This document shows, one piece after another, positions 848-57,173 of a stretch of DNA of 64,000 nt (the first letter of the stretch is position 1; each line of letters begins with the position of its first letter). The stretch is from contig CM023535.1 in NCBI GenBank assembly GCA_013350335.1, positions 33,202,991 through 33,266,990 of the forward strand, given 5' to 3'. Both the position numbers and the translations under genes were made by a program. The notes beneath the pieces were generated by a model. The model was not told the DNA's origin, did not search any database, and saw nothing but the letters and a program-made list of their open reading frames with translations. Source of the DNA: Chimonanthus salicifolius. Its lineage: Eukaryota; Streptophyta; Magnoliopsida; Laurales; Calycanthaceae.

Positions 848-3170
848 TGTAATAACCCAAATTTTTTATAAATATATATATTTGGCATTTATCGATTTTA
901 ATTTGAATTTTAACATGATGGAATACCAAATGGATCAAAAGTTGGGACAAGGGTCCAAGAATGGTCCAATGGGCCATGGATTGGATGAAATCCATTTAAT
1001 GAGTCAATGAGGACCAAGCGGGTCAATGATGGTCAAAGGGGATCCGATAGCCAAATGGGGCCCACCTCCACCTCACCCATTGAGGTGGCGTGTGGACCCA
1101 AGAGTAGTGGGGCCGACCACCATGGTTGACTTGGTCAACCATGGGTGGATCATGGAGGGAAATTAATGGGATTAAATTAAATAGAAAGTGATTAATTAAA
1201 TTAATCAAGGGATCAAGGTGATCTAAGTTAATCAACCTAAGATTAAAATGGTCAAATGGTTAGATGGTCATAACCACTCCAACAAACACAAACCACCTCA
1301 AGAAAACACAAATTAAAACCATGGGCTTGAATGGTGGTTGGGTCTCAACCACCACCACCAAAGTCAAGCCAACCCATGCTTGGTTGGTGAAGAAACTAAT
1401 GTTGGAGTGAAGACCACTCCAACCACCTCCATTCCATTGCAAGCCAACCCATTTCACTCTAGCATTCCTCATACACCAGGAAAAAACTGGCACCCACCTT
1501 GCAAGAGAGGAGAAAGAACTTAGAAGAAAAACTTAGAAGGAAAAGAAAAGAAAAGAGGTGAAACCTTGGATTCACCATTGGAAGATCAAGAGCTACTATC
1601 TTCATCACCTTCCCTTTTTCCCCTCTCTCAACCTAACCCTATCTTAGCAGATCCAAACATGTCTCACCATTGATCAAGCACATCTAGCCGATTAAAGATC
1701 AAGAAGAAGGAGAAAAGAGGCCAAGGAAGTTGACGGGAGCAACAAAGACCGGAGGAGTCGTCGGATAGTAAGTATGTTCTAAACAAGAAATTTATTATTT
1801 AAGGTTTTTAATTTTGAAATCCATCCTTGCCATATGATGGTGGCCAAATTATTTTAGGCTATGGAATGGATCTAAAATCCATCAAATGGAAGGCAAAGAA
1901 ATGGAAGAGATGGTCTAAGGAAAAAATGAAATGAATGGATTAAGCATCGAAAAGATGGAAGTTTTAATGGATTGAATGGACCTTAGGGTTCGGCCATGTA
2001 GCATGGCCGAACCCCATGGCCAATGTGGGATGATTTTTAATTAAGGTTTGAAGGTTTGAAATGGTGGAGAATGATGTATGATAATTAGTTTTCAAGTGAT
2101 TTTAATAGTGATTTTAAAGAGGATTTAAAGGCATAGAATGGAATGGATGAATGATCATAGGGTTCGGCCATGTAGCATGGCCGAACCCCATGATGAATAA
2201 TGAGTGATTTATTAAGATTATTAGGTTTAAAGATAATGAAGAAATTAGGTTAAGTTAATGATGAAATTTAAATGGATTTACAAAGTGAATGATATATTTT
2301 AGAGGGCCAAAATGAATGAGGATTATTGATTTAAAAAAAAAGGATTTCTTTTGGACAAAAACATTGGTCTAAGGATGGCATCAATGGATGATGAGCCATG
2401 AACCATGGGTTCGGCCATGGTGTATGGCCGAACCCTTGGTAGTATTTAATAATTCTCTTTATGATGGAAAAGTATAGAAAATGGTTAAGAAAAATGGATG
2501 GATTGTATGGATGTTTCAATTATGATATGTGATGTTGGTGATTTAAATGGATGATTCAATTAGAGGTATGTTTAAAAGGGTAAATGAAACCAAGAAAAAT
2601 GGGGAAAGAAACATCATGGGTTCGGCAATGGTGTATGGCCGAACCCATGACCCAAATTTTGATCAATTTTAGGCTAAGATTAAATGCATGTATCAATGCT
2701 TAGGAGTTTGATTTAAAGGGCCAAAATGATTAAAGTTTTGTGATTTTAAATTGGATTATTTTGGGACAAAACTTAGTCTTTGAAAATGGTATCCATAAAG
2801 GTGAACCTTAGGGTAGTGATTAGTGGATTTAATAAATGGAAAATAATGTAGAAGAATGCTAGATTTTAATGGATTTATAAAAATGATATGTGAGGGTTTA
2901 AATGGAATGAAAATGGGGACTTGAATGGATAATTTAAAATTCATTGGAGATTGGATTGAAGGGAGTAATATGGACCCAAGGGAATGGAAAATAAGCATCA
3001 TGGGTTCGGCCATGGTGTATGGCCGAACCCATGACCCATTTGGAGGTCATGATTGTGGGCCACCTTTAGGGCCAAATGTGAAAGGTTATATGGGGTTAAA
3101 TGTTTTTCAAAAATTAAGTAATGGGTGGCTGAATTTAAATAGGTCTAAGTTAGGGATGAAATCTAGACTT
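848..3170 (+). mobile_element. Truncated LTR of the E/F/G subfamily
   Basis: Starts TGTAATAACCC, the same start as solo LTRs F and G read on the minus strand, followed by the shared run of ATATAT and TTTGGCATTTAT. It then shows the usual LTR modules in order: GGGTCAA/TTGACCC-rich start, the dyad with arms ATGGTTGAC and GTCAACCAT (1122-1142), a purine/CT-rich leader (about 1500-1740), a GTAAGTA step at 1769, and five GGTTCGGCC hairpins. Around 3170-3177 it changes to sequence collinear with the 3' LTR of element 1, without reaching its own conserved 3' block. The 3' part is therefore missing or replaced by recombination. Confidence 0.7.
1981..3031. repeat. Five-copy GGTTCGGCC hairpin cluster
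   Basis: Inverted repeats near 1986, 2160, 2408, 2618 and 3001. Each has arms GGTTCGGCCAT and ATGGCCGAACC around a 5-base centre (GTAGC or GGTGT). Spacing is irregular, about 170-370 bp, and the sequence between copies is not itself repeated. Confidence 0.9.
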
Positions 3171-3954
3171 AAAATATCCACGATCCATTCGGTGGGACCG
3201 ATAAGGCATTCGTGGGGAGGCATGACAGAAATACTTGATGTGGCTTGTTCATCAAGGAGGCTACTAATGTGATTTGTGATATGGAAGAATTTTGTTATGA
3301 GTATCATGCACTATTATGGTTTTATCAGCATGATTATGATTCTAGTATCATGCTCTGTTTTTAGGTATTATGTTTTACAAGTACAGTATGATGTTTTGTA
3401 TGTTGACTTTATACTTATTCTATGTGTATAACCCTACATGGAATTCCTACTGGCTGCGTTGACTAACGCCCTACTTCTACCTTTGATGATGATACAGGGA
3501 ATGGACGGACGATGGACGCGAAAGGAGCCAAGCTTAGGAGCTTGGGCAGCTTATTGCTTATTTTTAAGTTTTAGTTTGGGCAGTGTGGTTGAGTTAATTA
3601 CATTTTGGGATTGTAATAACTTAGATATTATTCTGCTAGGGTTTGACGTTACCTTCGGATATTAAGTTCAATTAAGTTTTGAGTGATTGACTTCCTTGCT
3701 AAGTAAAGGTTATGGTTGGTTTATGTGATCAAACATTAATTCCGCAATGGGTTTATTTTGCAAGTGTAACTTTAATGCGTATGAACTGCTTTACTGGACT
3801 CGGTCCACGCACACATATGGTTGGCCAGTTAAGGGCCGAGCTTAAGAAGCTCGGACTTAGCTTGCGTCATGGTGTCCCGCTCTCTCTCATTCTTTATTTC
3901 AAAAAAATAATAGACTCTGATTTTCGGCGAGTGAAAAAGGGAGGGGCCCTCACA
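3171..3954 (+). mobile_element. 3' part of element 1 5' LTR
   Basis: From about 3177 the sequence follows the 3' LTR of element 1 (compare 10150-10460 and 17126-17651): a CCATTCGGTGGGACCGATAA unit, CTTGATG/CATCAAG hairpin, the CCAAGCT/AGCTTGG hairpin (3528-3545), then the stem CCGAGCTT (3836-3843) with AAGCTCGG (3847-3854). It ends CCCTCACA, a decayed form of the family end CGTTACA, directly before a recognisable primer binding site. This is the only part of the 5' LTR of element 1 that is secure. Confidence 0.8.
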
Positions 3955-3956
3955 GT

Positions 3957-3968
3957 TGCTATAAGAGC
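3957..3968 (+). other. Decayed primer binding site of element 1
   Basis: TGCTATAAGAGC differs at two positions from TGGTATCAGAGC, the initiator tRNA-Met complement seen intact in element H. A 2-bp GT spacer separates it from the LTR end, exactly as in H. The match fixes both the end of the 5' LTR and the strand of element 1. Confidence 0.8.
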
Positions 3969-4390
3969 GAAATCTGAAGTATGAATCTTTCAAAGTAAGA
4001 TTTAGACGGTGTCATGTCTCACTGACAAGATAAGAATCCTAACTGACCGACTCTTCGGAGTCTGCTGCAAGGGAGCCGGATTAATTTACTTTGTTAAGAA
4101 TCAGACTGAAGCATTCAAACTGAGAACAACACTATAACAGTAAGGGAAGGACAATCACTATAAACACGAATTTATCAAACATAGCAAAGTAGGACATATT
4201 TCCCAGAAACAAAAAAGATCAATATTTCTCCAAACAAGAGACATTGTGTGATACATAGAAAAGTTCCCCAAACAAGAGACATTATGTGATACATAGGAAA
4301 GTTCCCCAAACAAAAGACATTACGTGATACATAGGAAAACTCCCCAAACCAAGAAATATAAGATGATGATTAGGCAATTTCCCCAAGTAT
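3969..4390 (+). other. Element 1 untranslated leader with 38-bp repeats
   Basis: The leader between PBS and gag. From about 4222 to 4352 a unit of about 38 bp containing CCCCAAACAAGAGACATT and GTGATACATAGGAAA is repeated three to four times with few changes. The leader of H (51989-52379) has similar TTGGGGAG-type runs on its coding strand but no clean tandem array, so this is a local expansion. No coding sequence seen. Confidence 0.65.
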
Positions 4391-7315: not shown

Positions 7316-7352
7316 AAACCCTACTTCGCTCAATTTTCAGGACGAAAAATTC

Positions 7353-9201: not shown

Positions 9202-9331
9202 GATATTTAAAAGTTAATTGATTAACTATGGATTATCAAGTTATGAAATGAAAAGAAAGGAATGATGGTGGACCCGCGGTATTTAAAATAAAACAAGGAT
9301 TAAAGAAAAGGGGTCAAAAACAAAGGAGTGA

Positions 9332-9418
9332 GGTTCGGCCATGTTGTATGGCCGAACCCCATTGATGGGTCTTGGTGAACATGAACACATCATAGCCAAG
9401 TCGTATGGCCGTACCCCG
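9332..9418. repeat. Two GGTTCGGCC hairpins in element 1 3' LTR
   Basis: One intact copy at about 9332-9360 (centre GTTGT) and one decayed copy near 9390-9418. This LTR has far fewer copies than D, H, I, J or K. Confidence 0.85.
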
Positions 9419-10200: not shown

Positions 10201-11942
10201 ATAGAAATACTTGATGTGGCTTGTTCATCAAGGGGACTACTATTGTGATTTGTGATATGGATGTTGGGGGGGGTGATCATTGGCATATGACCCCATGACA
10301 TGGTACTACATTGGCATGATTTTGTTATTAGTATCATGCACTGTTTTGGTTTTATCAGTATGATTATGATCTCTATTATGATGCTCTGTTTTTAGGTATT
10401 ATGTTTTACAAGTACATTATGATGTTTTGTATCTTGATTTTATACTAATCCTATGTGTATTGTGACGCACCGCCCTTTTCACTATGCTTTCCATAAATCA
10501 GAGTCTATTTTTTTTAAAAAAATAACATAGTGAGCAATAGCGGGACGACACGACGTGAGCTAATTCCGAACTTCTAAAGTCCGACCCTTAACTGGCCAAC
10601 CCTATGTTTGCATGGACTAAGTCCATGAAAACGGTTCACACATAACAATATAAACCTGCGGAATCAAAATCATAACTGCGGAATTATAATAGAACCTAGT
10701 TCTATTCCATTTTAGATAGCAAAGTACGTCAAGTCCTTAATCATAATTAACATAACTTAATTATCCAAATAAACATCCAACCATAGCAAATCATTTAAAT
10801 TATTACATACCCGAAGTCTAGTTACTCAAATACAAGTCCATAAGTAACTTAATCAAAATAAAAACTAAAAGCATCCAAGCTCCTATGCTTGGCCCTTTTC
10901 GCGTTCATCGTTCTCCTCGTTTCCTGTATCATCCACTAGGGTAGAAATAGGGCATTAGAACAACGCGCCCAGTAGGTATTCTAATTAGGACTAACACATG
11001 GTTAGTACAAAACATGCATAATAATATCATAATGTCAAAAACCATATAAACTGTGCCATGTCATGATGTCAAATGCAATGAGTCCCACCCATCACATGTA
11101 CATATAAGTACCCCCACATAGATCTTTCGGACGCCCCGAAGGAGTGTGGCCCCTCCGGTTTCTTCTTGATGGAAAAGCACATCAAGGTATCCCACATAGG
11201 TTTTTCGGACGCCCCGGCAGAGTGTGGCCCCTCCGGTTACATATCCTTCACCCCATGCCATGCATGAGATGCTAATGAATCACATGCTATTTTATCATAT
11301 AAACATAGAATTAAAGCTCACATTTTGAAATAATATCTTTTGCAACATAATTCATCAAAATAAAATAAAAATATTGTATATTAAACCCATGGTTTCAAAG
11401 AGGTGGAATCCTACCGAAGACCACTAACGTGTCCTTGCGCTTTCGTCCGGTAACCGCTCACGATCGTACACACTTTATGAGGTCCCGTTACTTTATAATA
11501 TATCAATCAAGTAAAACCGCGTCCCATTTGATTTAACATTAGGTCTAAGTCCATAAACACAACCTTGTGGGGTTCAGCCATACACCATGGCCGAACCTCA
11601 CCCTTTTTCTTTTAGTTTCCTTTTTTGCTCATTTAACTTAAGTACAAGAACATATCACTTCCCATTCATTTAATCCAACATACATAACCCTAGGTCCACC
11701 AAACATTCCCCAACATTCCCCATGGGGTTTGGCCATACACCATGGCCGAACCCATGGTCCATTAATTTTACTTATTTACAATATTGCCATCCATGGCTAT
11801 CATTTTATTATTCTAACCCTTCATACATTAAAACCATATATCATTCCCCACGTGGTTCGGCCACACACCATGGCCGAACCCATGGTCTATCATTTTCACA
11901 CTTATTTACATCCTTGCCATTGTTTCCATCACCTCATGTTTA

Positions 11943-14900
11943 TGTAACGCCCCGCCCTCTCTGAGAAATCAGAGTCTAATTTTTTTTATAATAATAATAA
12001 AACATCGAAAGAGAGCAGGCGGCGTCACGACGCGAGTTAAGTTCAGACTACTCAAGTCTGAACCTTAACTGGCCACCCATGTATACATGGACTAGACCAT
12101 GATAATAAATCACACATGGAACTAACAACAACTTGCGGAATAAACTAGACTAATTGTGGAATAGAATGACTAGATAGTAAGTAACAGTCTCAAATATTAA
12201 TTAACATAAATAACCATCCATAGTTAGTAACCTAATCAAACCATAGCAAATTAATAACTTATTACATGTCCTCAAATTATAAATTCAAATGACAGTAATA
12301 AAGAAGTCTAGTGCAACATTCAAGCACTTAGGCTTGGCTCCCCTCCCGGTCATCGACCTTCTCTTTCCCTTTCCTTGTACCTGTATTCTCCTCTGAGGAT
12401 AGAATTAGGGCGTTAGATCAACGCGCCCAGTAGGTTCCCGAATCAGGGCTACCACATGGTTAGCATATAAAACATGCATATATATATCATAGTACATGAT
12501 TATCAAAAAATATAAAACCATGCTATGTATGTATGCAAATGTAATGAGCCCCACCCCATCACACATACATAGCCATCACTTGACGGGACTCTCAGCGTCA
12601 AGGTAAATCATAGTACACTTTCATCTGGGTCTCACATGATAAGTTAATCCACAGTAATCATCGTTACCTGTGGAAAGACACTTCATCATTGAGTTGTTTC
12701 ATTTCACATATTAGTCCTCCTGGCGGGACTCTCATCGCCTAAGGAGACCAATTGTGACTCTTCTTATCATGTTACTCCTCCTGGCGGGACTCTCATCGCC
12801 TAAGGAAGACGGTCACTCATAATTGCAACACTGTATAACTTCAGTCAACATCCCATGTCGATGCATGAGATGCCAATGCTTTGTATGCCATTTGTAAATG
12901 CATAACATATCATTCGAAACCACATAAAAATAAACAAGAGTCTCCTAAAGAAAACTAGGGTAAAACTGTGGTTATAAGTAGGTAGGAAACCTACTGAAGA
13001 TTCCCTTCAGTAATTGATCTTTCTTTAGCGTCACCAGGTCACGACTCGCACGTCGTCAACTTCCGGTACCTTGTCCATACAATAATCAGTAAATCATATT
13101 ATCACTTACTTGTTCATTCATATCTAAGACCCAACCACATCATGTGGGGTTCGGCCATGCCCATGGCCGAACATCATCAACTTAGAATTTGTCATTTTAT
13201 GGGGTTCAGCCCTATACTTGGCCGAACCTTGTATTCCCACTCTTCCATCATCAAATGATTCTCCATTACAATACTTTAAACCTTTTATAAAATCATAGGA
13301 ATAATATCAAACACAACCCATGAACTTAATCCATTTATTCCAAAAACAACCCATGGGGTTCGGCCATGCACATGGCCGAACCCAATGGTTCTCTTGATTT
13401 ATTTTGTCCATCATCTACTCATGATTTGAATCAATAACTTAACCCTAACATTGATATGGTTGAGCCCTATACCAGCCAGCCAAAAACAGTAACCAAATCC
13501 TCGTTTAATTCCCATAAAACATCATACTCTTACATACAAAATCATTTAATATTTTCCTGGGGTTCGGCCATCCAAAGTGGCCGAACCCTATGTCGATGTT
13601 TTGGTCCTCTTAAATATGTTTTAGATCTCATTTAGACAAGTAATAAACAGCATCACATTATTGTATTTTTTTCCCTCTTAAAACATCCAAATAAATTCAT
13701 CAACTTGTCCAAATGACCATATTACTTCATGGGATTTGGCCATCCAAGATGGCCGATCCCCATGGTCCATTTCATCAATTTTAATCCACTGTTTTAGACC
13801 CATGCTAACTTCAGTCCTTATGTCATTCAAATCCATGTTTTTAACCCTCTTTAAAACATGCATTTGAATCACAAAGAAACTCAAAAACAGTCCACAAAAA
13901 CTCCATGGTTTCTATGTTTCAAAACATCAAAACCAACCTATCTTTTACATGGGGTTCGGCCCTCCATGGTGGCCGAACCCAATGATCATTTTTACCATTT
14001 TAAAACCTCTATTACTCAAGGTTAAAACCTTGGTGCATTCGGCCATAACCATGGCCCAATACATATGTGCATAACACACCATGGTTTGACATGGTTTTCG
14101 ACCTTTAAGATCATCAAATCAAATCCACATTTTTCATGGGGTTTGGCCAACCAAGATGGCCGAACCCAATGGCATATTTTCTTATCCTTTTAAGCCATTT
14201 AATCCAAGGTCTAGACCTATGACAAATTCGGCCATACATGACCAAATTATGTCATCCAAATTTATAATTTCAAGCTCTTTAATAAACCAAGCACTTATGT
14301 AAAAACTTACCAAAGTTCCTTGTTTTAATCTTTACTTCCGATCCTTCTTTGCCTTCTTTCCTTTGCTGTTTTGTGCTTGATCTACTGGTGCAAACGCCTC
14401 TGTTGTTCCAGCTAGGAAAAACGAATTGGAAAGAGGGAGAGAGAGATGGAAATTCTTGGATTTCCAATGTGAAAAACGGCCAACCTTGGTGGTCATTCCC
14501 TTTAGTACTTCAGCCCCCAAGACCCCTCCATTCCCTCATCAATTCTTATAAAAAACGATGGGTCTTGGGTGTTATCCAATGCACCCCTTGGCACCTGCCA
14601 ATGCAGCCTCCCAACTCCCCAAGCATCACCTCCCATTTCCCATGTATTTCATTTAAAAACCCATCATGAAAATCACCCCAACAAGTCCCCAACGTGTGGG
14701 ACTTGTTTTGGTGGTTATGACTGAGCTAACCTATTCATATTCCCTCTAAACTCACTGATTTACAGTCCCATTGTTTTCCATTTTGACTCACCCAACTCAC
14801 ATGTCCAACTCACCTCATTAATTGACAATCATTTAATGAATTTGAGTCAACTCATTTTTAATTCAAATTAAATAAAATCGGTTCCACTTAACCTGATTTA

Positions 14901-15525: not shown

Positions 15526-16231
15526 GGGGTTCGGCCATACACCATGGCCAAACCCATGATCTTTCATTTTTAGCCGATATTACAAAATTGCCATTACCTC
15601 TATCATCTTATGTTTAGGTTCCAAAACATAAGTCCATTCATTTATTTACTCATATTAAATCCATAATATTATCCATAAATCAAGGTTCCTTCCTTTTTTA
15701 TTCAAAAGTCCATCATTAGATCCTTTCTAAATTAATAACCATTTTCCATGGGGTTCAGCCATACACCATGGCCGAACCCTATGGTTCATAATCTTCTCTT
15801 TAAAAATCATTACACCCATAAAATTCCTTAACCACTCAAGTCCATAAAAGAGACCTCATGGGGTTCGGCCATACACCATGGCCGAACCCATGATCTTTCA
15901 CTTTCAGCTATATTTACAACTTTGCCATCACTTCCATGATCTTACTATATGAATATAATTCCATGATTCCTTATGGGGTTCGGCCATACCCCTTGGCCGA
16001 ACCCATGGTCTAAGGTTCTTTACCAACAACCTTCCATTTAAACCCTTTTAAAACATACATAATATTCCATGGTTTTCATCATTCAAATCCATTAAAATAT
16101 AACCAATCTCTTTCCATGGTGTTCGGCCATACAACATGGCCTAACCCTATGGTTCATCCCTTTCATTAAACCTCAACATTCATCCCTTAATTTTTCTTCC
16201 ATGGGGTTTGGCCATACACCATGGCCGAACC
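15526..16231. repeat. Six GGTTCGGCC hairpins in I
   Basis: Copies near 15526, 15750, 15860, 15973, 16117 and 16202, with centre mostly ACACC. Three more copies of the same LTR lie left of J (11570, 11722, 11852). Confidence 0.9.
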
Positions 16232-42226: not shown

Positions 42227-43372
42227 TGTAACACCCCGGATTTTCCTTAGTTTATAAATTTAGTGGATTGGTCCACTTGGATTGCAATTTAATTGAATTT
42301 GAGATTTAAAAGTTGAAATGGACATTAGATGGGCAAGGAAATGGGTCAATTACCCAATTAAGATCCAATGGGTCATGGGTGACCTTGATTTAAAATAATT
42401 GGATAAATTTAGTTAAGTTAGCTGAGTTGGATAAATTAGTGCAATTAATGCATTAAAGTCTACCTCATCAAGTGAGGTGGCATGTGGGTGATGTGGCATT
42501 GTCATGTGGCATACAAGTCATCACATGGAAGTCAACTAAGCAAAGATGCCACGTTATCAAGTGACATGGCCAAAGTGGGATGAGAAGGTGAAGGGATGAG
42601 ATGGAGAGCTAGGATCTCATCTAAGGGAAGATAAAGGGTAGAGATTAAAAGATGGGGTAGTTTGTCTAAGTACATTGTACTTAGACACTTGGGAACTCAA
42701 GGGTCTCATCTCAAGAGCCATGAAGCCACCCTTGGGAAGCTAAGGGACTCTTTGGTTAAACCAGGGGTCTCCTTGGTTAGACCAAGCCATAATGAGTGGG
42801 AGGGAAGAGTTTAAGTCTTTAGCATAAAAACCCAAACCAAAGGGCATTCCAAACCCATTGGCCGACTCCTCCTCTCTTGGATAAGAGTTCCTCTCAACTC
42901 CTTTCCTCTCTCTCTCCCACCTCTACCTCCATATACTTGGAGACTTTGAACAACAAAGAAAGGAGAAGAAGAATTAAGGAAGAAGAGAAAGATCAAAAGA
43001 AAAGAAGGAAATTGAAGGAATGTATGTCTAAGACTTAATAATATGGAAATAAATCTAAGGAAAACATAGGTTAGGCCATGGTGTGGCCGAGCCCATGTAT
43101 TCCATGATTGGTTGGAATGAATGGCCAAAATTGTTATAAGGCCATGGAGTTGGAAATCCATCCAAAGGATGATTATGGGTTGAAACAAAACACCCATAAG
43201 ATTAAATTCGAACCCATGCTATGATACTATGATTGGATGGAGTATGAAAAACCCTAACCTTGGCTAGTGGGTAGGATAAATTTACTAAGTGAAGTATTGG
43301 AGATGAAATTGTTGTTTAAATATGATAAAGGATGGATTTCAAGGAGAAGGGCCTTACAATGCAAGCAAACAC

Positions 43373-46300
43373 TGTAACACCCCGCCCTTTTCACTCTAAA
43401 TTTTCAGAGTTTATTTTTTTTTTTAAATATAATAATAATCAACAAGTGATCGGGGCGGAATGTCACGACGCGAGTTAAGTTCGGATCTCTAAATCCGACC
43501 CTTAACTGGCCAAGCCCATGTGCGTATGAACTAAGTCCATAAAACTGATCCGCACATGATACATATATAACTAGCGGAATTAATTTAGTCTAAATCTAAC
43601 TGAGGTTATAATAGATCCTATGACTAATCCAACTTTCCATTCTTAGATAGCAAAGTACCTTATTTATTCTCCAAAATTATTATATAACCTTAGTCTACTA
43701 TTCATTCCAAACCATTCAAATAAATCCAACCATAGCATCTACTTAACTACTTATTACATGCCAACATCTAATTAACAAATTACATTGTTCCAAATAAATC
43801 AACTAACAAGTCCATAAATAATCCATTCATAGTCCATTTCAATCATTCAAATCGCCCAAGTTTTCGTACTTGGTCCTCTTCTCCAACCACGTTCTTTCCT
43901 TTCCCTGCATCATCCACTAAAGATATAGATAGGCCGTTAGATCAACGCGCCCAGTAGTGTTTCCGAATAGGGCTACCACATGGTTAGTCAAAAACATGCA
44001 AATAGGATAATAGTTATACATGTGTGACAAAATTCTGTAAAAATATGCTATGTATGAAATGAACATGTAATGAGTCCCACCCATCACCATTCAACATAGC
44101 CATCACTTGACGGGATTCTCATCGTCAAGGTAACCCACAGTGGTCTTTCGGACGCCCCGACGGAGTGTGGCCTCCGGATTCCTCCTGATGGGATTCTCAT
44201 CATCAGGGTACCCCACAGTGGTCTTTCGGACGTCCCGACGGAGTGTGGCCTCCGGTTACAACACCATCATCCCATGCCATGCATGAGATGTCTATGCAAA
44301 CATGCCATTTGTAAATATAACATTTGTAAATATAACATATCATGGCTCGTTCACCGTTCTAAAAATCCGAATACCCTATGTACATGGCAGCAAGTTAATC
44401 ATTTATCCACCTAATTTCCAGCAAAGCTTAATGTTCCAAGAATCACCTAGTGGGGTTCGGCCAAAGCCATAGCCGAACCTCATCCATTAAAACATTGGTC
44501 ATTCATTTATTTAATTAAAACCTATCTAATTACCCAAACTTCTAAACGAACCTTAGTAGGGTTCGGCCATACATTATGGCTGAACCTTACCACTTTGGTT
44601 TTAGCCCATTTATCCCATCATATGATCATTTTATTTTTGATCATTTCAGCCATAATTACGATTGTGCCATTGAGACCAACCTTTGCTTTAAATTAACTAA
44701 CTTTCATCACCAAACATAAAACCATCTTTAGTGGGGTTCGGCCATACACACGGCTGAACCTCACCACTTAATTTGATCCTTCTTAAACCTTCCATATCTT
44801 CATATACACCAACCATTATGTCCCATAATTACCATTAGTGGGGTTCGGCCATACACATGGCCGAACCTCACCAATGTGATTTTATGCTCAATTTCCATCA
44901 TTCATATTGGCCAATTACTTACCCATACTAACTCCATAAACAACATATATTATTCTTAAATCAAAGCATATAAATAATACCTAATGTTCATCATAAACTT
45001 AACCCAATTATTCCACAAAACAGTCCATGGGTTTTCATGGTTTCCATGGTTTCCATGGGATTCTCAACATGAAAACCAACATCATTTTACATGGGGTTCG
45101 GCCCTCTATCATGGCTGAACCCAATGATTACGTTTACTGTTTTTAAACCTCAATTAACCATGTAATAACTGTATATCTAAATCAGGTTTTTAACCTTCAA
45201 ACAACCATCCAAAATTAGCCCAATTTCATAGGGTTCGGCCATGCTTATTGGCCGAACACCATGAGATTAATTTTGAACATTTAGTCCTTCATCTTTGGTC
45301 TGAAACCAGCACCCAAATCCATGTTTTTTTTAACCATTCTAAAACATGTATTTACATCTTAAAATAATAACCCAAAACAGTCCACCAACTTCATGGTTTA
45401 TTTGTTCCAAATACATCAAAACAAACCATTATTTGCATGGGGTTCGGCCCTCCATGGTGGCCGAACCCTATGACCTTTGGTTTTGAATTTCTTCATCATT
45501 CATCTATGTCCAAAACAAACTTCCTTATTTATGTTTTAACCTTTTTAAAACACACACTTAAAATCATCTAAAAACAGTCCCAAATTTGTATGGTTTTAAT
45601 TTCCAAAAACCATCCAAATAAATCAATTATTTCCATGGGGTTTGGCCATCCAATGGGGCCGAACCCTATGGTCCCTCTTTTGATCTCATACATGTACTTC
45701 TAACCAATATTTAACCCTTGTTAGATTCAGCCATCCAATAGCCGGATCATAATTCTTAATTAAAAACAGTTTATCGAACACCTACCGTTTCCGCGACTCC
45801 TCCACTTGATCTTTACTCCCACTTGTTCCTTCCCTTTTTGCTGAACTTGTCTTGATGAAAAGGGATCAAACCAAGGACTGATTAACAACCAGCTACTGCT
45901 CTTAGTGTTTGGGAAAACAGAGAACGGCTAAGAGAAAGGGAGAGAGAGAGAAATGGGCACCCTTTGTTTAATCAAAACCAGCCCAAGATTAACCTTGTGT
46001 AACTCTCATTGCCTTTACCCTAAACTTTATGTTACTTGGGGGTTTCATCATGAGATGAAACCTCCCCATGTTCCCAACGTCCCTTGTTGATTGGACTTGT
46101 GTAACCCCCACTTCCTAACTCCTTTTCTCATTACCTTTGCATGTGAGAGTTTCATTTAAAAAATGAAACTCTCCTAGGCTCCAACGGTTTTAGCCCTAGC
46201 TTAATTTGTATCACCTTCATCTTCCATTAGTGCACCGTTTGGGAGTTTCCATCCTTGAGATGAAACCCCATGTCCATTCATTTCTCATGCTTGATTTGAA

Positions 46301-47294
46301 TATTTGAAATAAGTAACTCCTCACCCTTGATGCAGCCCATGTGTAACCACCACTTCTTAATGCTCATCAACGTCCCATATGATTCTATTTCATCTTTGAG
46401 ATGAAACTCTTGCCCTACCTTCAACATGTAAACCAAGAGTTGAATTTGAAATGCCATTATCTCTTTGTGTAACTTCATAAATAGCAGCTCCAACTTTGGG
46501 GTTTATTTGCATGAAAATAATGATCCAATCTACACCAACGTCTTCCATGTATAATTTTGTGATTATTTGCATTCTCTACTTTATTGATCTCTCATTATCC
46601 TTGCATTTGTACCTCTCAAACATCCATCCCACTAACTCCATTGTAGCTGTTACATGCATGCAATATTCTCATGCATCCAACGTCCCTATGCATTCTATGT
46701 AATTTCAAAGTGTAACTCCCATTCAAAATGTAACTCCCATTTTATTCATCATCTAAATGGGGGTTACATGCATGGTAATGTCTCCCATGCACCAACGTTT
46801 TTCCTTGCTCAAAATTTGGAATTAAAACACTTCCCCTCTCATTCACACACTTCACTCACTTACATTAAAAATACATATTCATCCAACTCATTTATTCAAC
46901 TCACCCAACCTAAGTCATTCATTTAATTTAACTTAACTAATAAATTCAACTCAACTTAACCCATCATTCATTTCAACTCAAACCAAACTCAAGCAATTAA
47001 TAAACTTAATTTAACTAAGCTTGAACTCAATCCATGGTTAATCATGCCATTCACGACCCATTGGGTCCCATCTAGCCATTTTGACCCATTTATCAAAATT
47101 TGACCCAAATATGATTCTTGACCCGTTTAAATTCATCTTATCCATTTATTTGTTTTGTAAACAAACTACCATCCTTTGGGTCTTGATTGAGCCATCGACC
47201 CATTTAAATTCAAATCAATTTTATCACAATGGCAATTCCGTAAATATGAATATTTTCATATAAAATGATAACTTTGAAATTCCAGGGTGTTACA
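43373..47294 (-). mobile_element. 3' LTR of H
   Basis: 3922 bp from TGTAACACCCCGCCC to CCAGGGTGTTACA (plus-strand reading). It lacks about 120 bp present in the 5' LTR (right copy about 53346-53465), including the GGTAGGAAACCTAC box. At the junction (44307-44340) TTTGTAAATATAACA is duplicated. It contains perfect stems CTTGACG/CGTCAAG (44106-44129) and CCTGATG/CATCAGG (44184-44207), RY box 44278-44285, eight GGTTCGGCC hairpins, and GTTTCAT/ATGAAAC hairpins near 46025, 46147 and 46385. Confidence 0.95.
44454..45665. repeat. Eight GGTTCGGCC hairpins in H 3' LTR
   Basis: Copies near 44455, 44562, 44733, 44842, 45089, 45231, 45438 and 45639. Some are decayed in one arm only (CGGCTGAACC, TGGCTGAACC). 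In the H 5' LTR the same copies stand at 53576-54245 and 58375-58812. Confidence 0.92.
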
Positions 47295-47302
47295 ATACAA
47301 TA

Positions 47303-47310: not shown

Positions 47311-47356
47311 ATAATTTTCGTCCCGAAAATCGAACGAAGTAGGATTTCAAAGTAAT

Positions 47357-50300
47357 TCACACAAACAATTCAGGGTGAGATGTTCTCATCTCCGATTCCA
47401 ATTCCCAAGTGGCCTCCTCAACACCATGTCGATCCCAAACCACCTTGACGAACTGAATCGCTCGGTTACGCAACACCCTTTGCTCACTCTCCAATATTCT
47501 GACCGGCTTCTCGACATAAGTGACATCGCTTTGCACATCTATATCTTGCACATTCAAAACATGAGACGGATCAGGGTTGTACTTCCTCAGCATCGACACA
47601 TGGAACACATCATGTAGAGACGCCAATTGCGAAGGAAGTGCCAACTGATAGGCTACATCTCCTATCCTTCTGATAATTGAAAACGGTCCCACATATCTTG
47701 GCGACAATTTTCCTTTCTTCCCAAATCTCATGTGCCCTTTTCGTGGCGAGACCTTCAAGAATACCATGTCTCCCACTTCAAATTCGAGAAACCTCCTCCT
47801 CTTATCAGCATAGCTCTTTTGCCGACTCTGTGCGGTCAACAAATGTTGACGTATCAACTGGATCTGTGCAGTAGTTTCTGCAACCATCTCGGGTCCTATC
47901 AGTGCATGTTCGCCAACCTCGGTCCAGCACACTGGTGACCTGCATGGTCTACCATACAAAGCTTCGAATGGTGCCATCTGGAGGCTTGCCTGGTAGCTAT
48001 TGTTATAAGAAAATTCCACCAATGGCAAATGATCCTCCCATCCACCTTTGAAGTCTAGCATGCACACCCTCAACATATCCTCCAACGTTTGTATTGTTCT
48101 TTCCGATTGTCCATCGGTCTGTGGATGGAATGCTGTGCTAATAAGTAGATCGGTTCCCATGGCCGACTGCATGCTCTGCCATACCCTGCCGGTGAATCGG
48201 CCATCTCTATCAGACACTATAGTCTGTGGGATACCATGTAATCTGATGATGTCTTTGATATATCTCCGACCCAATGTCTCTGATGAATCCGTCATCTTGA
48301 TAGGAATAAACTGCGCGGACTTGGTCAATCGGTCTACCACAACCCATATAGCGTCATTGCCCTTCGAGGACCTCGGCAACCCCGTCACAAAGTCCATGGA
48401 AATGTGCTCCCATTTCCATTCCGGCACTACTAAGGGTTTGAGTAACCCTGGTGGCTTCTGATGTTCTGTCTTAACCTGCTGACAAGTTAAACAATGAGCC
48501 ACGAACTCTGCAACATCCTTCTTGAGTCCATGCCACCAATAATGTCTTTTTAAGTCATGATACATTTTTGTGCTACCCGGATGAATGGACAACTTGCTCT
48601 GATGTGCCTCTATCAATAATTCTTTTCTACAGCTTCTTGGCACATAAATTCTACCCCGGAATATAAGACCCTGTCCTGGTCGTAATTCCCAATCCGGTAC
48701 AACCTCGCCAATGGACATTTTGGCCCATGTCTCTGCCATTTCCGGATCTGTTCGTTGCTCCTGTTCAATCTTTGTAACCATGTTGGATCGTATGATCAAA
48801 TTGTACATACTCCCATGGTTTGTGATGTATAGATTAAACTCACGAATGGAATTCAACATCTCCCATTCAGTCCTGATCAAACATGCCACTGATGCATGAG
48901 ACATGCGGCTGAGAGCATCCGCCACTTTGTTGGCCTTTCCCGGATGATATCGGAGCGCAAATTCATAATCCGCCAGATATTCCATCCATCTGCGCTGCCT
49001 CAGGTTGAGCTCTTTCTGATCAAATAAATACTTCAAGCTCTTGTGATCTGAAAATACTTCAAACTTCTCCCCATATAGATAGTGTCTCCAGCTTTTGAGA
49101 GCGAAGACCACCGCAGCTAATTCCAGATCATGTGTGGGGTAGAGGCGTTCATGTATCTTTAGTTGTCTTGAACCATATGCCACCACCCGATCACGTTGCA
49201 TGAGTGAACATCCCAGTCCTTCTCCTGATGCATCACATTGTACTTCATAACCTTTGCCCCTTTCCGGCAAAACTAGAATAGGAGCAGTTGTAAGTCTCTC
49301 TTTCAGCTCCTCAAATCTCTGATTGCACAACTCTGACCATTCATATTTGACTCCTTTCTGCGTGAGTCGAGTCAATGGAGATGCTATTTTAGAGAAATCC
49401 ATGATGAACTTCCTATAATATCCAGCCAAACCCAGAAAACTACGGATTTCAGTGACATTCTTTGGTGCTTTCCACTCACTTACTGCTGCCACCTTAGCCG
49501 GATCAACAGCTATACCATCTGCTGTTATAACATGCCCTAAGAATTTGACCTCAGGTAGCCAAAATTCGCATTTGCTTGCTTTGGCATACAGCTGGTTCTG
49601 TCTCAAGGTGTTCAATACTATTCGAAGATGCTCAGCATGATCTTCCTGACTCTTGGAATAGATCAGGATATCGTCAATGAACACTATAACAAACCGATCC
49701 AGATATGGACGGAATATTCTGTTCATTAAGTCCATGAACACAGCCGGTGCATTGGTAAGCCCAAATGGCATGACTACAAATTCAAATAGTCCATACCGTG
49801 TTCTGAAAGCTGTCTTCTCGATATCTTCCTCCCTGACCCGGATTTGATGATAACCGGACATCAGGTCAATCTTGGAAAAATGACTGGATCCCCTCAACTG
49901 ATCGAATAAATCATCGATCCTGGGTAGAGGATACTTGTTCCGGACAGTTAGTTGATTCAACTTCCGGTAGTCCACACACATTCTGAGTGAACCATCCTTC
50001 TTTTTCACGAACAACACTGGAGCTCCCCATGACGATGTGCTGTTCTGAATGCAACCCAGTCTGAGTAATTCATCAAGCTGCTTCTTCAACTCAGACATTT
50101 CTGCTGGTGCCATTCGATAATGGGGTAGAGACACTGGTGAGGTACCAGGATATAGCTTGATCTCAAAATTGAGCTCCCTCATAGGCGGTATACCAGGAAG
50201 TTCTTTTGGAAAGACATCAACAAATTCTTTCACAATTGCTGGAAGTTCAGTAACTGGTGCTTTGTTGATGACAATATTGTTCAACACCAAATGATGCAAC

Positions 50301-51988
50301 CCTTCCTGCAATCTGCTTTGCTTGTCGGCACGAACTATATACTGTTTTCCCTCGGGTGACCAAAATGTCACTCTTCGGCGATAACAATCAATATTGGCTT
50401 CATAACTAGCCAACCAGTCCATGCCAAATATAATATCGTACTCAGTCATGTCGAGTACCAAATAATTGAACTCAAATCTGAGTCCAGCGAGTTCTGTATT
50501 TATGGCCGTGCATATGAGTCCCAAAGACGTGTCTCCGACAGGGGATACTACTGTGAGTGTGGTGGACAGCTTTTGAACTAGTGTCCCAGTAGCAGTTATA
50601 AAGGATGCAGATATAAAAGAGTGCGATGCTCCAGAATCAAACAATGCATAAGCATAAGAACTATTGACAACAGCCATACCTTGAATCACAGAATGATCCA
50701 CATCCTCAGGAGGTTCCAGAGCAAATAGTCGTCCAGATCCGGTAGGATTAGGCGCCCGTCCCGCCTGATTATATGTCCTGCCTCCTCGGGAGTTAGCTGG
50801 CCTAGCTGGTGGACGGAAAGATCCTCTGGAATATGAGAGCCTATTGAGCTTTGGACAGTCTCTCTTGAAGTGACCCGGCTGATTACAGTGGAAACAGTTG
50901 TTCACCCCTTTGAATGACTGGGTGACTGATGCAGATGGGGAGGGCTGGTTGGGACGAAAGCTCCCCGCGGACCCAGTAGATGGTGAGGGTCTACTGAAGT
51001 TCGGACGGAACCTCTTGTTGGGCTGAAACCCACCCCTCCCACTTGGAGCTCGACGATTGTCAAACCGTACTATTGCATTCAACTCCTGTTCTGCTATTGT
51101 GGCCTTGCTGACCACCTCAGCCAATGTGGTGCACTTAAATATGGTCACTTTGGCCCTGATGTTTGGCCGTAGACCCCTCTCAAACTTTCTTGCCTTGCGA
51201 AGTTCTGTGTCCACCATATAAAATGCATAAATGGATAAACTGAGAAATTCACGGTGATACTCTGCCACCGTCATAGAGCCCTGCACCAAGGACAGAAAAA
51301 GTTCCGTTTGTCGCTCCTTCTCCTCCTCCGGAAAGTAATGTTCCAGAAAGGTTGCTGAAAACTCATTCCATGTCATGGCCGTCCTCTCCCTAACTGGTAT
51401 GAGTTCCCTCTGCTTCTCCACCACCTCCCACCATTTACCGGCATCTTCTATCAATTGTGAAGTAGCCAGTAAAATCCTGTCAGCATGACTCGAGATCTTA
51501 AGTAATTTTAAGATCTGAGTGATCTTCTTCAGCCAGTGCTCGGCTCCGACAGCCCCTTCCTTCCCTTTAAAGTAGGGAGGACGCTGTTGTTGAAATTCTC
51601 GTGCCATACTCCGGTCACTGGCATCCCTGGAACTTTCACTCCCATTCATATGTTGCTGGAGTACTGAGGTTACCACTGCTTGGACTAATCCCTGAAGCTC
51701 AGGCGGCACATGTGGTATATGTACACCACTGTTTCCTTCTCCCTCCTTCTGTGATGCATTCTCACTCCCCTTTTCTTCCCTCCATGGGTGCTGTGATTCT
51801 TCCCCATTGTGAGACTTTTCATGAACAGGTTGCTCCTCATCAGGTTGGGTTACCTCTTTCTCATGTATAGACGGCTCCTTCTCATGCACAGATTTTTCGT
51901 GTTGTGGTAACACTTTCTCATGTTGCGTGATTTGCAACACCTTTTCCTTCCCTTTTTGGTTCTGAGGGATCCTTCTCTTTGGAGCCAT
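47357..51988 (-). CDS. Gag-Pol polyprotein of a Tekay/Del-type chromovirus
   Basis: One open frame of 1543 residues makes all element proteins, cleaved by its own protease. Visible order: charged N-terminus with repeated HEK words (about 20-60); retrotransposon Gag with AEHWLKKI and FLEHYFPEE (about 145-280); zinc knuckle [14 protein letters not shown] (about 364-377); protease FDSGASHS (about 448-455); RT with [11 protein letters not shown] and active site FIDDILIYS (near 770); RNase H CDASGEG (near 918); integrase HHCC finger (about 1133-1169) and DDE core with D near 1198, D near 1259 (SDRDGRF) and E near 1295 (GQSERT), the last two 35 residues apart as expected; GPY/F module [12 protein letters not shown]; and a C-terminal chromodomain ([19 protein letters not shown]). 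I see no stop or frameshift and every catalytic motif is kept. The start is the first ATG after the leader and encodes MAPKRR. Clade assignment comes from the chromodomain and motif wording; no tree was made. Confidence 0.97.
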
Positions 51989-52379: not shown

Positions 52380-52391
52380 GCTCTGATACCA
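52380..52391 (-). other. Primer binding site of H
   Basis: Minus strand TGGTATCAGAGC, complementary to the 3' end of plant initiator tRNA-Met, separated from the 5' LTR end (52394) by two bases, GT. It sets the internal boundary of the 5' LTR and the element orientation. Confidence 0.95.
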
Positions 52392-55300
52392 ACTGTAACA
52401 CCCCGCCCTTTTCACTCTAAATTTTCAGAGTTTATTTTTTTTTTTAAATATAATAATAATCAACAAGTGATCGGGGCGGAATGTCACGACGCGAGTTAAG
52501 TTCGGATCTCTAAATCCGACCCTTAACTGGCCAAGCCCATATGCGTATGAACTAAGTCCATAAAACTGATCCGCACATGATACATATATAACTAGCGGAA
52601 TTAATTTAGTCTAAATCTAACTGAGGTTATAATAGATCCTATGACTAATCCAACTTTCCATTCTTAGATAGCAAAGTACCTTATTTATTCTCCAAAATTA
52701 TTATATAACCTTAGTCTACTATTCATTCCAAACCATTCAAATAAATCCAACCATAGCATCTACTTAACTACTTATTACATGCCAACATCTAATTAACAAA
52801 TTACATTGTTCCAAATAAATCAACTAACAAGTCCATAAATAATCCATTCATAGTCCATTTCAATCATTCAAATCGCCCAAGTTTTCGTACTTGGTCCTCT
52901 TCTCCAACCACGTTCTTTCCTTTCCCTGCATCATCCACTAAAGATATAGATAGGCCGTTAGATCAACGCGCCCAGTAGTGTTTCCGAATAGGGCTACCAC
53001 ATGGTTAGTCAAAAACATGCAAATAGGATAATAGTTATACATGTGTGACAAAATTCTGTAAAAATATGCTATGTATGAAATGAACATGTAATGAGTCCCA
53101 CCCATCACCATTCAACATAGCCATCACTTGACGGGATTCTCATCGTCAAGGTAACCCACAGTGGTCTTTCGGACGCCCCGACGGAGTGTGGCCTTCGGAT
53201 TCCTCCTGATGGGATTCTCATCATCAGGGTACCCCACAGTGGTCTTCCGGGCGCCCCGACGGAGTGTGGCCTCCGGTTACAACACCATCATCCCATGCCA
53301 TGCATGAGATGTCTATGCAAACATGCCATTTGTAAATATAACATTTGATTCAAATAACTTATTCAAATAAACATAAAACAGCAAATAAGTTATGTGGTTA
53401 CAACAAGGTAGGAAACCTACAATAGTTTACTTTGTTCGATCCTTCCTTTGGACCGTCTTCCGATCACGGCTCGCTCACCGTTCTAAAAATCCGAATACCC
53501 TATGTACATGGCAGCAAGTTAATCATTTATCCACCTAATTTCCAGCAAAGCTTAATGTTCCAAGAATCACCTAGTGGGGTTCGGCCAAAGCCATAGCCGA
53601 ACCTCATCCATTAAAACATTGGTCATTCATTTATTTAATTAAAACCTATCTAATTACCCAAACTTCTAAACGAACCTTAGTAGGGTTCGGCCATACATTA
53701 TGGCTGAACCTTACCACTTTGGTTTTAGCCCATTTATCCCATCATATGATCATTTTATTTTTGATCATTTCAGCCATAATTACGATTGTGCCATTGAGAC
53801 CAACCTTTGCTTTAAATTAACTAACTTTCATCACCAAACATAAAACCATCTTTAGTGGGGTTCGGCCATACACACGGCTGAACCTCACCACTTAATTTGA
53901 TCCTTCTTAAACCTTCCATATCTTCATATACACCAACCATTATGTCCCATAATTACCATTAGTGGGGTTCGGCCATACACATGGCCGAACCTCACCAATG
54001 TGATTTTATGCTCAATTTCCATCATTCATATTGGCCAATTACTTACCCATACTAACTCCATAAACAACATATATTATTCTTAAATCAAAGCATATAAATA
54101 ATACCTAATGTTCATCATAAACTTAACCCAATTATTCCACAAAACAGTCCATGGGTTTTCATGGTTTCCATGGTTTCCATGGGATTCTCAACATGAAAAC
54201 CAACATCATTTTACATGGGGTTCGGCCCTCTATCATGGCTGAACCCAATGATTACGTTTACTGTTTTTAAACCTCAATTAACCATGTAATAACTGTATAT
54301 CTAAATCAGGTTTTTAACCTTCAAACAACCTGTAACACCCTGGAATTTCAAAGTTATCATTTTATATGAAAATATTCATATTTACGGAATTGCCATTGTG
54401 ATAAAATTGATTTGAATTTAAATGGGTCAATGGCTCAATCAAGACCCAAAGGATGGTAGTTGGTTTACAAAACAAATAAATGGATAAGATGAATTTAAAC
54501 GGGTCAAGAATCATATTTGGGTCAAATTGTGATAAATGGGTCAAAATGGATAGATGGGACCCAATGGGTCGTGAATAGCATGATTAGCCATGGATTGAGT
54601 TCAAGCTTAGTTAATTTAAGTTTATTAATTTCTTGAGTTTGGTTTGAGTTGAAATGAATGATGGGTTTAGTTGAGTTGAATTTATTAGTTAAGTTAAATT
54701 AAATGAATGAGTTAGGTTGGGTGAGTTGAATAAATGAGTTGAATGAATATGTATTTTTAAATGAGTAAGATGTAGAGATAGAAGGATTGTAGGCTGTTTC
54801 AAATTCAAACACTAAGAATTATTGGCTGCATGGGAAACTTATATGCATGTAACTCCCACCCAAGTTAAGAATGAAAATGACGTTACATGGAGTTACTTGG
54901 GTGAGAGTTGAGGTTTTCAAATCATTAAGCACGTTGGAGTTGGTATAGGGTTTATGCCATGCTTGGGTCTTCAAAAGACAGCCCATATATGGATTGATGG
55001 TTCATGCATGTAACTCCAAGGTTGGAGAATAAAATAGGTATCTGATTGGAGGAGTTACACACAATAGATTATGGCATTCCAAATTCAAATTAGATGTTAA
55101 ACCAATGGGAGTTACAAAGTGTGTTCACACTTGGAGGAGGGGAGTTTTATTCCCATGATAGAACTCCCACATGGGACGTTGATGAGGGCCAAATGGGGCT
55201 GATTGGAGCTGCTGTTGGTGGAGTTACACTTGAGAGTAGTGGCTGTTACATAAGCCAAAATTGAGAGGCAGCTAACAAAGGGACGGTGCAGCACATGGGG

Positions 55301-55669
55301 GTTACATTTCAAAGTGAAACTCCCATGTGAGAACCTAAGAAAAAGGGGGGTTACACTAGTTCAACCACAAGGGACGTTGGTTGCTTGGGGTGTTTCATTT
55401 CATAGATGAAACCCCCAAGTAACATAAAGAACCTTGATTGAGGAGAGGGAGTTACACAAGGATTAACCTTGGGCTGTTTTTGGTCAAGCAAAGGATTTTC
55501 ATTGTTACTCTCTCTATCTCTCTATCTCTCTTGGACGTCCTCTATCTGTCTAAACCAAGAGCAGCAGCTGGTTGCTCATTTCAATTAGTTTTGGGTAATC
55601 CTTTCATCAAGACAAAAAATCAGCAAAAGGGTTTTGGCAACAAGGTTAGCAATTTCATTCAAGACCAAA

Positions 55670-55700
55670 GTTCCCTTTCTCTCTCTCTCTCTCTCTTAAG
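55670..55700 (+). repeat. CT microsatellite in K leader
   Basis: An almost pure run of CT dinucleotides. Similar CT runs stand at the same module position in B (28867), D (31056) and H, next to the GGAGGAG/GTAAGT step. Confidence 0.9.
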
Positions 55701-55819
55701 TCCTTGTCACCTGGCTGAATTATCTCAAGGAGCTTGCATCAAGATCAGTCTCAGCCCAAAGAACAGTAAGAGAGAAGGAGAGGTCAAGGAGATAAAGGGT
55801 CAAAGAAGGAGTCAAAAGA

Positions 55820-55850
55820 ACCGAAGGAGACGCGGTATTAGTAAGTGCAT
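55820..55850 (+). promoter_or_regulatory. Conserved GTAAGT step after leader (possible splice donor)
   Basis: Reads GGAGACGCGGTATTAGTAAGTG. Equivalent sites: CGGATAGTAAGTA (about 1763), GGAATCGGTAAGTA (about 31336), GGATTGTAAGTA (about 34021), AAATTGGTAAGTA (about 19137). They follow a purine-rich GAAGGAG stretch and fit the plant 5' splice consensus AG/GTAAGT. Splicing is an inference. Confidence 0.4.
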
Positions 55851-55966
55851 TTTGAACCCTTGTTTAATAGATTGGTTAAGAAAATGAGATTTGGCCATTG
55901 TATGGCCAGATCCATCAATGGTTTAGACCTAGAATTATGATGTTTAAAATAATAAAATATGGACCA

Positions 55967-57173
55967 TAGGGTTCGGCCCCATTGGATGGCCGAACCCCAT
56001 GGAAAAACTTGGTGGATTCTATGGTATTTGAAAGTCAAAATCCATATTTTGGAGTGAGGATTTTAAAAGATTTTTATATGGAATTAAGCTTACTGTTTTG
56101 GAGTAGATATGACATGACTGAACCATATTTATCTTATGTTAATTTGTTGATTAATTTCATAGATAAATATGGGTGGATTTCCATTAAGAGAACCATAGGG
56201 TTCGGCCATGTGTATGGCCGAACCCCATGGACTGTTTTTAGATGATTTTAAGTATGTGTTTTAAAAAGGTTAAAACATAAATAAGGAAGTTTGTTTTGGA
56301 CAAAAATGAATGATTAAGAAGTTCAAAACCAAAGGTCATAGGGTTCGGCCACCATGGAGGGCCGAACCCCATGCAAATAATGATATGGTTTTGATGTATT
56401 TGGAACATATAAACCATGAAGTATGTGGACTGTTTTGGGTTATTATTTAAGATTCAAAGACATGTTTTGGAAAGGGTTAAAAGCATGGATCTGTATGACA
56501 AAGGACTGAAGTTAGCATGGTTTAAAACAGTGGTTCAAAACTGATGAAATGGATCATTTGGATCGGCCATTTTGGATGGCCGAATTTCATGAAATAATAT
56601 GGTCATTTGGGACAAGTAGATGAACTGATTTAGATGGTGTTTAAGAGGTATAATGGCAGCAATATTATATTGATTTTGTATGTTTAAATAACACCAAACA
56701 CATGTTTTAGAAGACCAAAACATGGACATAGGGTTCGGCCACCTTGGATGGCCGAACCCCATGTAAGTATTTGGTTGTTTGGGTTGGCTTTCAAAAAGAT
56801 GGAAATCACATCAATTATGGATTTAGTATTAAGATGATGGAAAATAGGATTAAAATCTTTAGGGTGAGGCTCTGCCATGTTATGTGGCCGAACCCCACCA
56901 ATTATCATGTGATGGACTTTGTTGTCTAAGGAAAAAAAATTAGGCAAAGGATAGTATAATGGCATTATGGTAAATAAGGATGAAAAGATGAAATGATCAA
57001 AAGAATGGACTTATGAGCCAAAACCTAAGGTGGTAAGATTCGGCCATGTAGTATGGCCGAACCCTACCAAGTGTCATTTGAAAAGTTTGGGATACTTAGA
57101 TGGTATTAAGTAAATAAAAGATTTATCAAAGTTTAAATGGGTGAGGTTCGGCCATGGGGTATGGCCGAACCCC
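55967..57173. repeat. Eight GGTTCGGCC hairpins in K
   Basis: Copies near 55967, 56199, 56340, 56561, 56729, 56869, 57038 and 57144. The number and approximate spacing match H read in reverse, but centres differ in several copies (for example CCTTGG against CAATGG). Confidence 0.92.

Follow-up and report, generated by a model that had tools for sequence, protein, structure and literature searches.

Conserved palindrome arrays in the long terminal repeats of a Ty3/gypsy retrotransposon lineage of Chimonanthus salicifolius

The window considered here is a stretch of 64,000 nucleotides from the plant Chimonanthus salicifolius (contig CM023535.1). It contains an intact Ty3/gypsy retrotransposon; a solo long terminal repeat (LTR) nested in the 5' LTR of that element, in the opposite orientation; and other LTRs and LTR fragments (Table 1). 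Dispersed through these LTRs are many copies of one dyad, a palindrome with two arms, GGGTTCGGCCAT and ATGGCCGAACCC, on either side of a short centre. The palindrome array is real, genome-wide, and conserved. It is best read as a candidate counterpart of the palindromic motifs in the LTRs of Sirevirus (Ty1/copia) elements, and may work in a similar way.

The carrier element

The intact element has a single long open reading frame (ORF), gag-pol, whose domains follow the Ty3/gypsy order: gag, protease, reverse transcriptase, RNase H, integrase, and SH3_Tf2-1. The integrase core match falls under its cut-off. Reverse transcriptase and RNase H lie before the integrase domains, so by gene order the carrier is not a Ty1/copia Sirevirus. 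A chromodomain match at the gag-pol carboxyl terminus is in the expected place and weak (Chromo, 12.3 bits, E 0.16; cut-off 25.1). The best full-length protein relative shows 49% identity over 96% of the query, and the named matches are mostly from plants. Among ORFs of at least 250 amino acids, two of which are listed in the window, none but gag-pol was found inside the intact element.

Each LTR of this element begins with TGTAACACCC and ends with GGGTGTTACA. The pair is 99.0–99.8% identical over three aligned pieces, and therefore the insertion is young. Long LTRs (here 3925 bp) together with a TGGTATCAGAGC primer site are typical of the Tekay/Del clade. The dyad-carrying lineage is Ty3/gypsy and probably Tekay-like.

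Abundance and distribution of the dyad

At no more than five total mismatches, the window contains 77 dyads of the form GGGTTCGGCCAT-N(2-7)-ATGGCCGAACCC, and the reversed window none. With a fixed 5-base centre, the pattern GGGTTCGGCCATN5ATGGCCGAACCC (at most three mismatches) has 58 matches in the window, whereas 100 dinucleotide shuffles average 0.00. These controls rule out a chance origin. An earlier note on this DNA, made from the sequence alone, had reported many copies of one dyad dispersed through the LTRs, and the searches confirm it. The range given there, 1981 to 57,173, does hold dyads; the true range is wider, running from 232 to 58,812, with an additional weak copy at 61,358. The same note proposed a genome-wide count of the arm pair with variable centre. 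In the genome (852,596,351 bp in 591 contigs) that count is 43,348 exact dyads for centres of 0–12 bases, of which the 5-base centre alone gives 37,527; the control is 0 for each.

The whole dyad, not the half, is the unit, because 119 of 121 near-exact arms (at most one mismatch) are paired with an arm of at most four mismatches at a spacing of 0–9 bases. The unpaired two are at 8494 and 9405. As a control, the search for a partner was shifted onward by 100 bp for 60 left arms; a single one was then paired.

Density was sampled in 20 arbitrary 10-kb loci from the first 28 Mb of six contigs, and in 40 kb beside the window. Eighteen of the arbitrary loci have no dyad; one has a single weak dyad (five mismatches, 7-base centre); and one has five dyads, whose adjoining sequence is similar to LTRs of the same lineage. 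The 40 kb beside the window hold 31 dyads (14, 4, 4, and 9). After the dyads themselves were masked, a repeat copy still matched within 250 bp of 118 of the 123 dyads from the window and loci; the five exceptions are all in the window, among other dyads.

Searches further afield were negative within their scope. The prokaryote collection genome_contigs (257 billion bases) gave no exact copy of the motif, and viral_contigs gave none of a motif one base shorter per arm; the LTR had no match among plasmids and phages; and no transfer RNA or Rfam family was found. Among the 20 literature matches listed, of 157 for pieces of the motif, none by title concerns transposons, and among those listed for palindromes in LTR retrotransposons (Ty3/gypsy, Ty1/copia), no title reports such an array.

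Anatomy and array layout

The anatomy was read from 125 dyads, drawn from the window and the loci and counting those in each LTR of the intact element. Their orientation was set by the G/T-rich centre, and in the intact element this matches the coding strand. The sense consensus comprises an A-tract near −26, CCAT, GGGTTCGGCCAT, the centre, ATGGCCGAACCC, CATGG, and a T-tract near +25, the two tracts being symmetric beyond the arms. The core, TTCGGCC...GGCCGAA, places CGG and CCG 13 bases apart at the usual centre. The most frequent centre is GGTGT (32 of 125). A 5-base centre, as described in the earlier note, is present in most copies, but a minority have 4 or 3 bases. Three subtypes, read by eye, differ symmetrically outside the core and tend to follow an order, with CCATR...YATGG towards the 5' end, CATCAT...ATGACCC between, and GTGAGG...CCCCAC towards the 3' end. 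Some copies break this order, for example 31461. Orientation is near-uniform in 12 window groups, apart from the dyads at 19272 and 45231, which have ambiguous centres and were called opposite.

In the intact LTR, the array occupies positions 1630–2843. The array likely lies in the unique 3' (U3) region of the LTR, because it precedes TATA-like words at 3610 and 3727. Arrays other than those of the intact element have 2–8 dyads each, and may be truncated.

Neighbouring dyads are irregularly spaced: 49 spacings run from 55 to 406 bp, with one more of 655, and the median is 187. Because of this irregularity (55–655 bp), a CRISPR (clustered regularly interspaced short palindromic repeats) array or a satellite was rejected, an exclusion that the earlier note had also made. 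Neighbours show no helical or nucleosomal phasing when eight periods are fitted to 45 spacings (p 0.99 at 10.5 bp); the lowest p, uncorrected, is 0.05 at 195 bp. Neighbours do tend to share a centre, again as noted before: 14 of 49 pairs are identical, against 5.1 expected for random pairs. Shuffling the centres within each LTR gives a mean of 10.2 sharing pairs, and 2.9% of shuffles reach 14.

Conservation and spread

Related LTRs carry dyads at matching positions. Alignments of homologous LTRs contain five unshared dyads: two are opposite a decayed dyad, and three are in gapped, poorly aligned stretches. An insertion resembling a miniature inverted-repeat transposable element, or another kind of mobile palindrome, was rejected, there being no clean empty site among these five.

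Conservation was measured in 125 dyad-by-partner comparisons, from alignments of 65–93% identity. Identity is 0.908–0.942 in the arms, 0.814 in the centre, 0.874 in the five bases right of the dyad (CATGG), and 0.723–0.835 in the remaining flanking bins. Arm divergence between LTRs is thus about one third of that in most flanking bins. These values, with the retention of CpG almost only in dyads (see below), support the earlier proposal of selection for the dyad. The slower change reflects selection in lineages still moving, not on every copy.

The sequence between copies was previously described as unshared. This holds for eight arrays, in which flank similarity scores lie near the shuffled null, but not for four neighbour or near-neighbour pairs that are clear segmental duplicates (15527/15861, 22032/22668, 31546/31834, and 45440/45638). 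Such pairs therefore provide a plain route for array growth. Gene conversion or short-template copying, to which the spread had been attributed, is not needed, because positions match between LTRs, orientation is near-uniform, and some neighbours arose by segmental duplication. The dispersal is explained by retrotransposition together with local segmental duplication and purifying selection.

CpG and base composition

Over 12 array spans, 109 of 122 CpGs are within dyads; per dinucleotide position, dyads have 109 in 1708 and spacers 13 in 8236. Spacers from nine arrays (6262 bp, with 8 bases trimmed beside each dyad) contain 9 CpG, an observed/expected ratio of 0.07 at a GC content of 0.29, compared with a ratio of 0.61 in dyads. 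The dyad CpGs have thus been kept, whether by selection or by methylation protection, amid surroundings with almost none. Elsewhere in the intact element, the ratio is 0.35 in the LTR before the array, 0.87 in the LTR after it, and 0.56 in the coding part. The sense strand of the spacers in the nine arrays is also strongly asymmetric, with 6.6% C versus 22.7% G.

A sister family with a second palindrome

The sister family is represented by two LTRs (25743–28942 and 60496–63666), which have a 3' LTR block in common with the other LTRs. Both are without the main dyad, save for the weak copy at 61358, whose counterpart in the other LTR has decayed. Each carries an array of another palindrome, TTCAGYCGACTGAA, in units of about 72 bp. 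Counted at no more than three mismatches, TTCAGYCGACTGAA has two more matches elsewhere in the window; the reversed window gives 5. CpG is again denser inside the copies (12 in 210 bases, against 9 in 591 outside; in the second array, 10 in 210 against 8 in 361), a contrast weaker than that around the main dyad. Motifs that differ between related elements appear also in the Sirevirus table of PMC2829016.

Other repeats are present in the window. GC-rich tandem repeats with units of 57–78 bp lie at 44108–44255, 53129–53276, 21275–21448, and 37449–37615; by eye, their consensus units contain CGGAG-N6-CTCCG, a gapped palindrome with the CGG...CCG signature. Tandem arrays of differing sequence, with units of 38–105 bp, lie at 4226–4354, 7773–8233, 9788–10194, 16444–16657, and 40086–40280.

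Table 1. Dyad arrays, the carrier element, and related features of the window
Feature	Coordinates	Strand	Basis
2 dyads (232, 638) of an LTR fragment	232..666	+	motif search
5-dyad array of the LTR beginning at 848	1986..3030	+	motif search
Lone dyad	9331..9359	+	motif search
3-dyad array	11570..11881	-	motif search
7-dyad array, plus weak dyad at 14035	13147..14167	-	motif search
6-dyad array	15527..16232	-	motif search
5-dyad array; weak dyad at 19191	19272..20101	+	motif search
5-dyad array	22032..23293	-	motif search
Array of 15 copies of TTCAGYCGACTGAA in a sister LTR	26978..27524	+	
7-dyad array; weak 3-base-centre dyad at 31387	31461..32413	+	motif search
Lone dyad with 3 mismatches	34252..34280	+	fixed-centre search
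3 dyads (35319, 35435, 36090)	35319..36118	+	motif search
Lone dyad, ambiguous centre	38163..38191	.	motif search
2 dyads	38373..38643	-	motif search
3' LTR of intact element, 3925 bp; 8 dyads at 44453-45666 (sense LTR positions 1630-2843)	43371..47295	-	
gag-pol ORF, 1543 amino acids, Ty3/gypsy domain order	47357..51988	-	
Primer-binding-site-like TGGTATCAGAGC adjoining 5' LTR	52380..52391	-	
5' LTR of intact element, interrupted by solo LTR; 8 dyads (53577-54246, 58377-58812)	52392..60441	-	
Solo LTR, target duplication CAACC; 8 dyads at 55969-57172	54331..58347	+	
Array of 16 copies of TTCAGYCGACTGAA in the second sister LTR; weak 2-base-centre main-motif dyad at 61358	61679..62249	+	

What the dyads may do

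These observations suggest a model, given about an even chance of being right, in which the dyads serve a protein as long palindromic binding sites, clustered in the control region of the LTR. A homodimeric or larger DNA-binding protein would dock on the dyads in U3 of these Ty3/gypsy LTRs and, once bound, would drive the element's transcription or regulate it. Besides the pairing, slow change, placement, orientation, and CpG content of the dyads, the model draws on the symmetric A- and T-tracts, on outer positions 14–17 (complementary more often within than between copies when subtypes are pooled), on the other palindrome of the sister family, and on the published Sirevirus parallel. Copies would have multiplied through retrotransposition of LTRs already holding arrays, and the arrays would have grown through local segmental duplication; later the spacers would have drifted and the dyads not. 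Both the protein binding and the action on transcription are putative.

Several observations weigh against this model. A conserved half-site of 12–17 bp is longer than those that plant transcription-factor dimers usually recognise, and centres of 3, 4, and 5 bases would be poorly tolerated by a rigid dimer. Helical phasing is absent from the spacings (p about 0.99 at 10.5 bp). In the youngest element (LTRs 99.0–99.8% identical) the dyads are imperfect, with 1–3 mismatches each. The conservation values call for caution too: the 125 comparisons are non-independent, the query dyads were picked for likeness to the motif, and the left arm falls opposite a gap in the partner more often (0.083–0.091) than most flanks do.

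RNA hairpins in the LTR transcript are an unlikely alternative. They would serve in packaging, in export, or in RNA stability, or would give rise to small RNAs that the host uses for silencing. Several observations speak for them. The extended dyad is predicted to fold strongly (about −28 kcal/mol sense and −32 antisense), and a hairpin tolerates centres of 3–5 bases. The subtypes differ symmetrically at positions 14–17, where complementarity, with subtypes pooled, is 0.69, 0.63, 0.78, and 0.37 within copies versus 0.55, 0.37, 0.41, and 0.24 between copies; the strong fold and this pooled outer complementarity therefore make a structural role possible. C-poor sense spacers (6.6% C) would let hairpins fold on their own, and palindromes of maize Sireviruses attract small RNAs, according to PMC10760457 and PMC5311732. 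However, within subtypes, flanks taken from the same copy are no more complementary than flanks taken from different copies, so that copy-specific flank pairing was rejected. A strand-specific wobble preference was likewise rejected: among 117 dyads there are 30 sense-wobble and 27 antisense-wobble changes, with neither kind favoured. Pair-restoring double changes are not in excess in 86 non-redundant dyads (2 versus 1.19 expected; 33% of permutations reach 2). Moreover, an A opposite C in the sense strand is a conserved mismatch beside the core, and only one 110-nucleotide window of the array in the intact LTR (position 2380) falls below −40 kcal/mol, with one more outside the array (3040).

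The earlier note's suggestion of an RNA hairpin or small-RNA role thus finds no support. Its proposed test, whether mutations in one arm are matched in the other, gives no excess in these dyads, and none is apparent in a partial genome-wide count. That count covered the wild type, one symmetric double, and the asymmetric doubles: 144 dyads have the identical CpG change in both arms and 314 (150 + 164) have different CpG changes in the two arms, the latter against 288 expected if both changes are equally frequent. It records mainly the decay that follows insertion, and is a poor guide to selection in active elements.

Two readings that require no function are each very improbable. Homogenisation by gene conversion, by template switching during reverse transcription, or by quasi-palindrome correction would account for one sequence recurring amid unrelated spacers, and for the neighbours with shared centres (14 of 49 versus 5.1 for random pairs). 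Acting within an LTR, however, it would blur the position-specific centres, the subtypes, and the position-by-position matches that are seen; and mismatches confined to a single arm are common (31 of 86 dyads, versus 10 of 86 with mismatches in both), so arm-by-arm correction is ineffective. Alternatively, the copies could be passive relics, merely inherited with their LTRs and under no present selection. The CpG decay, which looks uncoupled between arms as expected after insertion, and the imperfect dyads of the young element agree with this, but the arms diverge about one third as much as most flanking bins, and the dyads retain CpG that the spacers lack.

A variant of the protein-binding model is itself quite unlikely. 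The dyads might dock a sequence-specific anti-silencing or boundary factor that coevolves with the lineage and keeps the sites unmethylated in a control region otherwise stripped of CpG, with each LTR family having its own palindrome array and families switching palindromes in the manner of VANC proteins and their targets, though in a Ty3/gypsy lineage. The switching could then let families escape host silencing or one another; the low probability applies to the two proposals jointly.

The arrays have broader consequences. Tens of thousands of identical 24-base sites in a single genome make a binding factor, methylation, and small RNAs directly testable. Moreover, long palindrome arrays in Ty3/gypsy LTRs, together with the other palindrome of the sister family, point to a convergent build of retrotransposon control regions.

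Comparison with known systems

VANC targets in VANDAL transposons (Hosaka et al. 2017, PMC5735166) are likewise a motif set densely, and in one orientation, in the non-coding sequence of a transposon. The motif changes from one related family to the next, and the arrays grow through repeat formation. The dyads here are also dense and in one orientation, two ambiguous centres excepted. However, VANDALs are DNA transposons that encode the binding protein, and their 9-base motif is non-palindromic (PMC5735166); no such protein was seen among ORFs of at least 250 amino acids in the present element. The Su(Hw) insulator cluster of Drosophila gypsy shares clustered sites, AT-rich surroundings, and a Ty3/gypsy element (PMC2374998). 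It differs in that its 12 sites fall within a 340-bp part of the 5' untranslated region and have a 12-bp non-palindromic core (PMC2374998). The dyads here, by comparison, are more widely spaced, lie in LTRs, and form a longer palindrome.

Box I, an LTR activator of the Ty1/copia element Tnt1, has few and short copies, unlike the dyads. The likeness is that it is a symmetric regulatory element of a plant LTR (PMC2829016).

Sireviruses offer the closest parallels. Regions of maize Sirevirus LTRs rich in palindromes attract small RNAs (Martin et al. 2023, PMC10760457; Bousios et al. 2017, PMC5311732). As here, these are hairpin-folding palindrome clusters in LTR regulatory regions; the carrier here is Ty3/gypsy, whereas maize Ty3 elements are described in PMC10760457 as generally without such a peak of hairpin-like structure.

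The LTRs of Sireviruses carry palindromic repeated motifs, the RM boxes (Bousios et al. 2010, PMC2829016), and such arrays are described there as Sirevirus-specific within a Ty1/copia comparison. Like the motif here, RM boxes show dyad symmetry and a CGG...CCG core, recur many times within an LTR, and lie in diverged surroundings. In both, the motif varies between related elements and sits before TATA-like words; the table in that paper gives at least 8 copies per element, and each LTR of the intact element here has 8. There are also differences: the gene order of the carrier here is that of Ty3/gypsy; with arms of 12–17 bp and a 5-base centre, the dyad exceeds in length the motifs of 10–20 letters in the table; the array is CpG-poor outside the dyads, whereas the Sirevirus cluster is a CpG island; and the TATA-like words are about 770 bp away, versus about 37 bp after the island. 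As part of a Ty3/gypsy element and with no CpG island, the dyad array is not a member of the RM boxes. On the best reading, it is an LTR array that would work like the Sirevirus motifs, with a longer palindrome and without a CpG island, in a Ty3/gypsy lineage.

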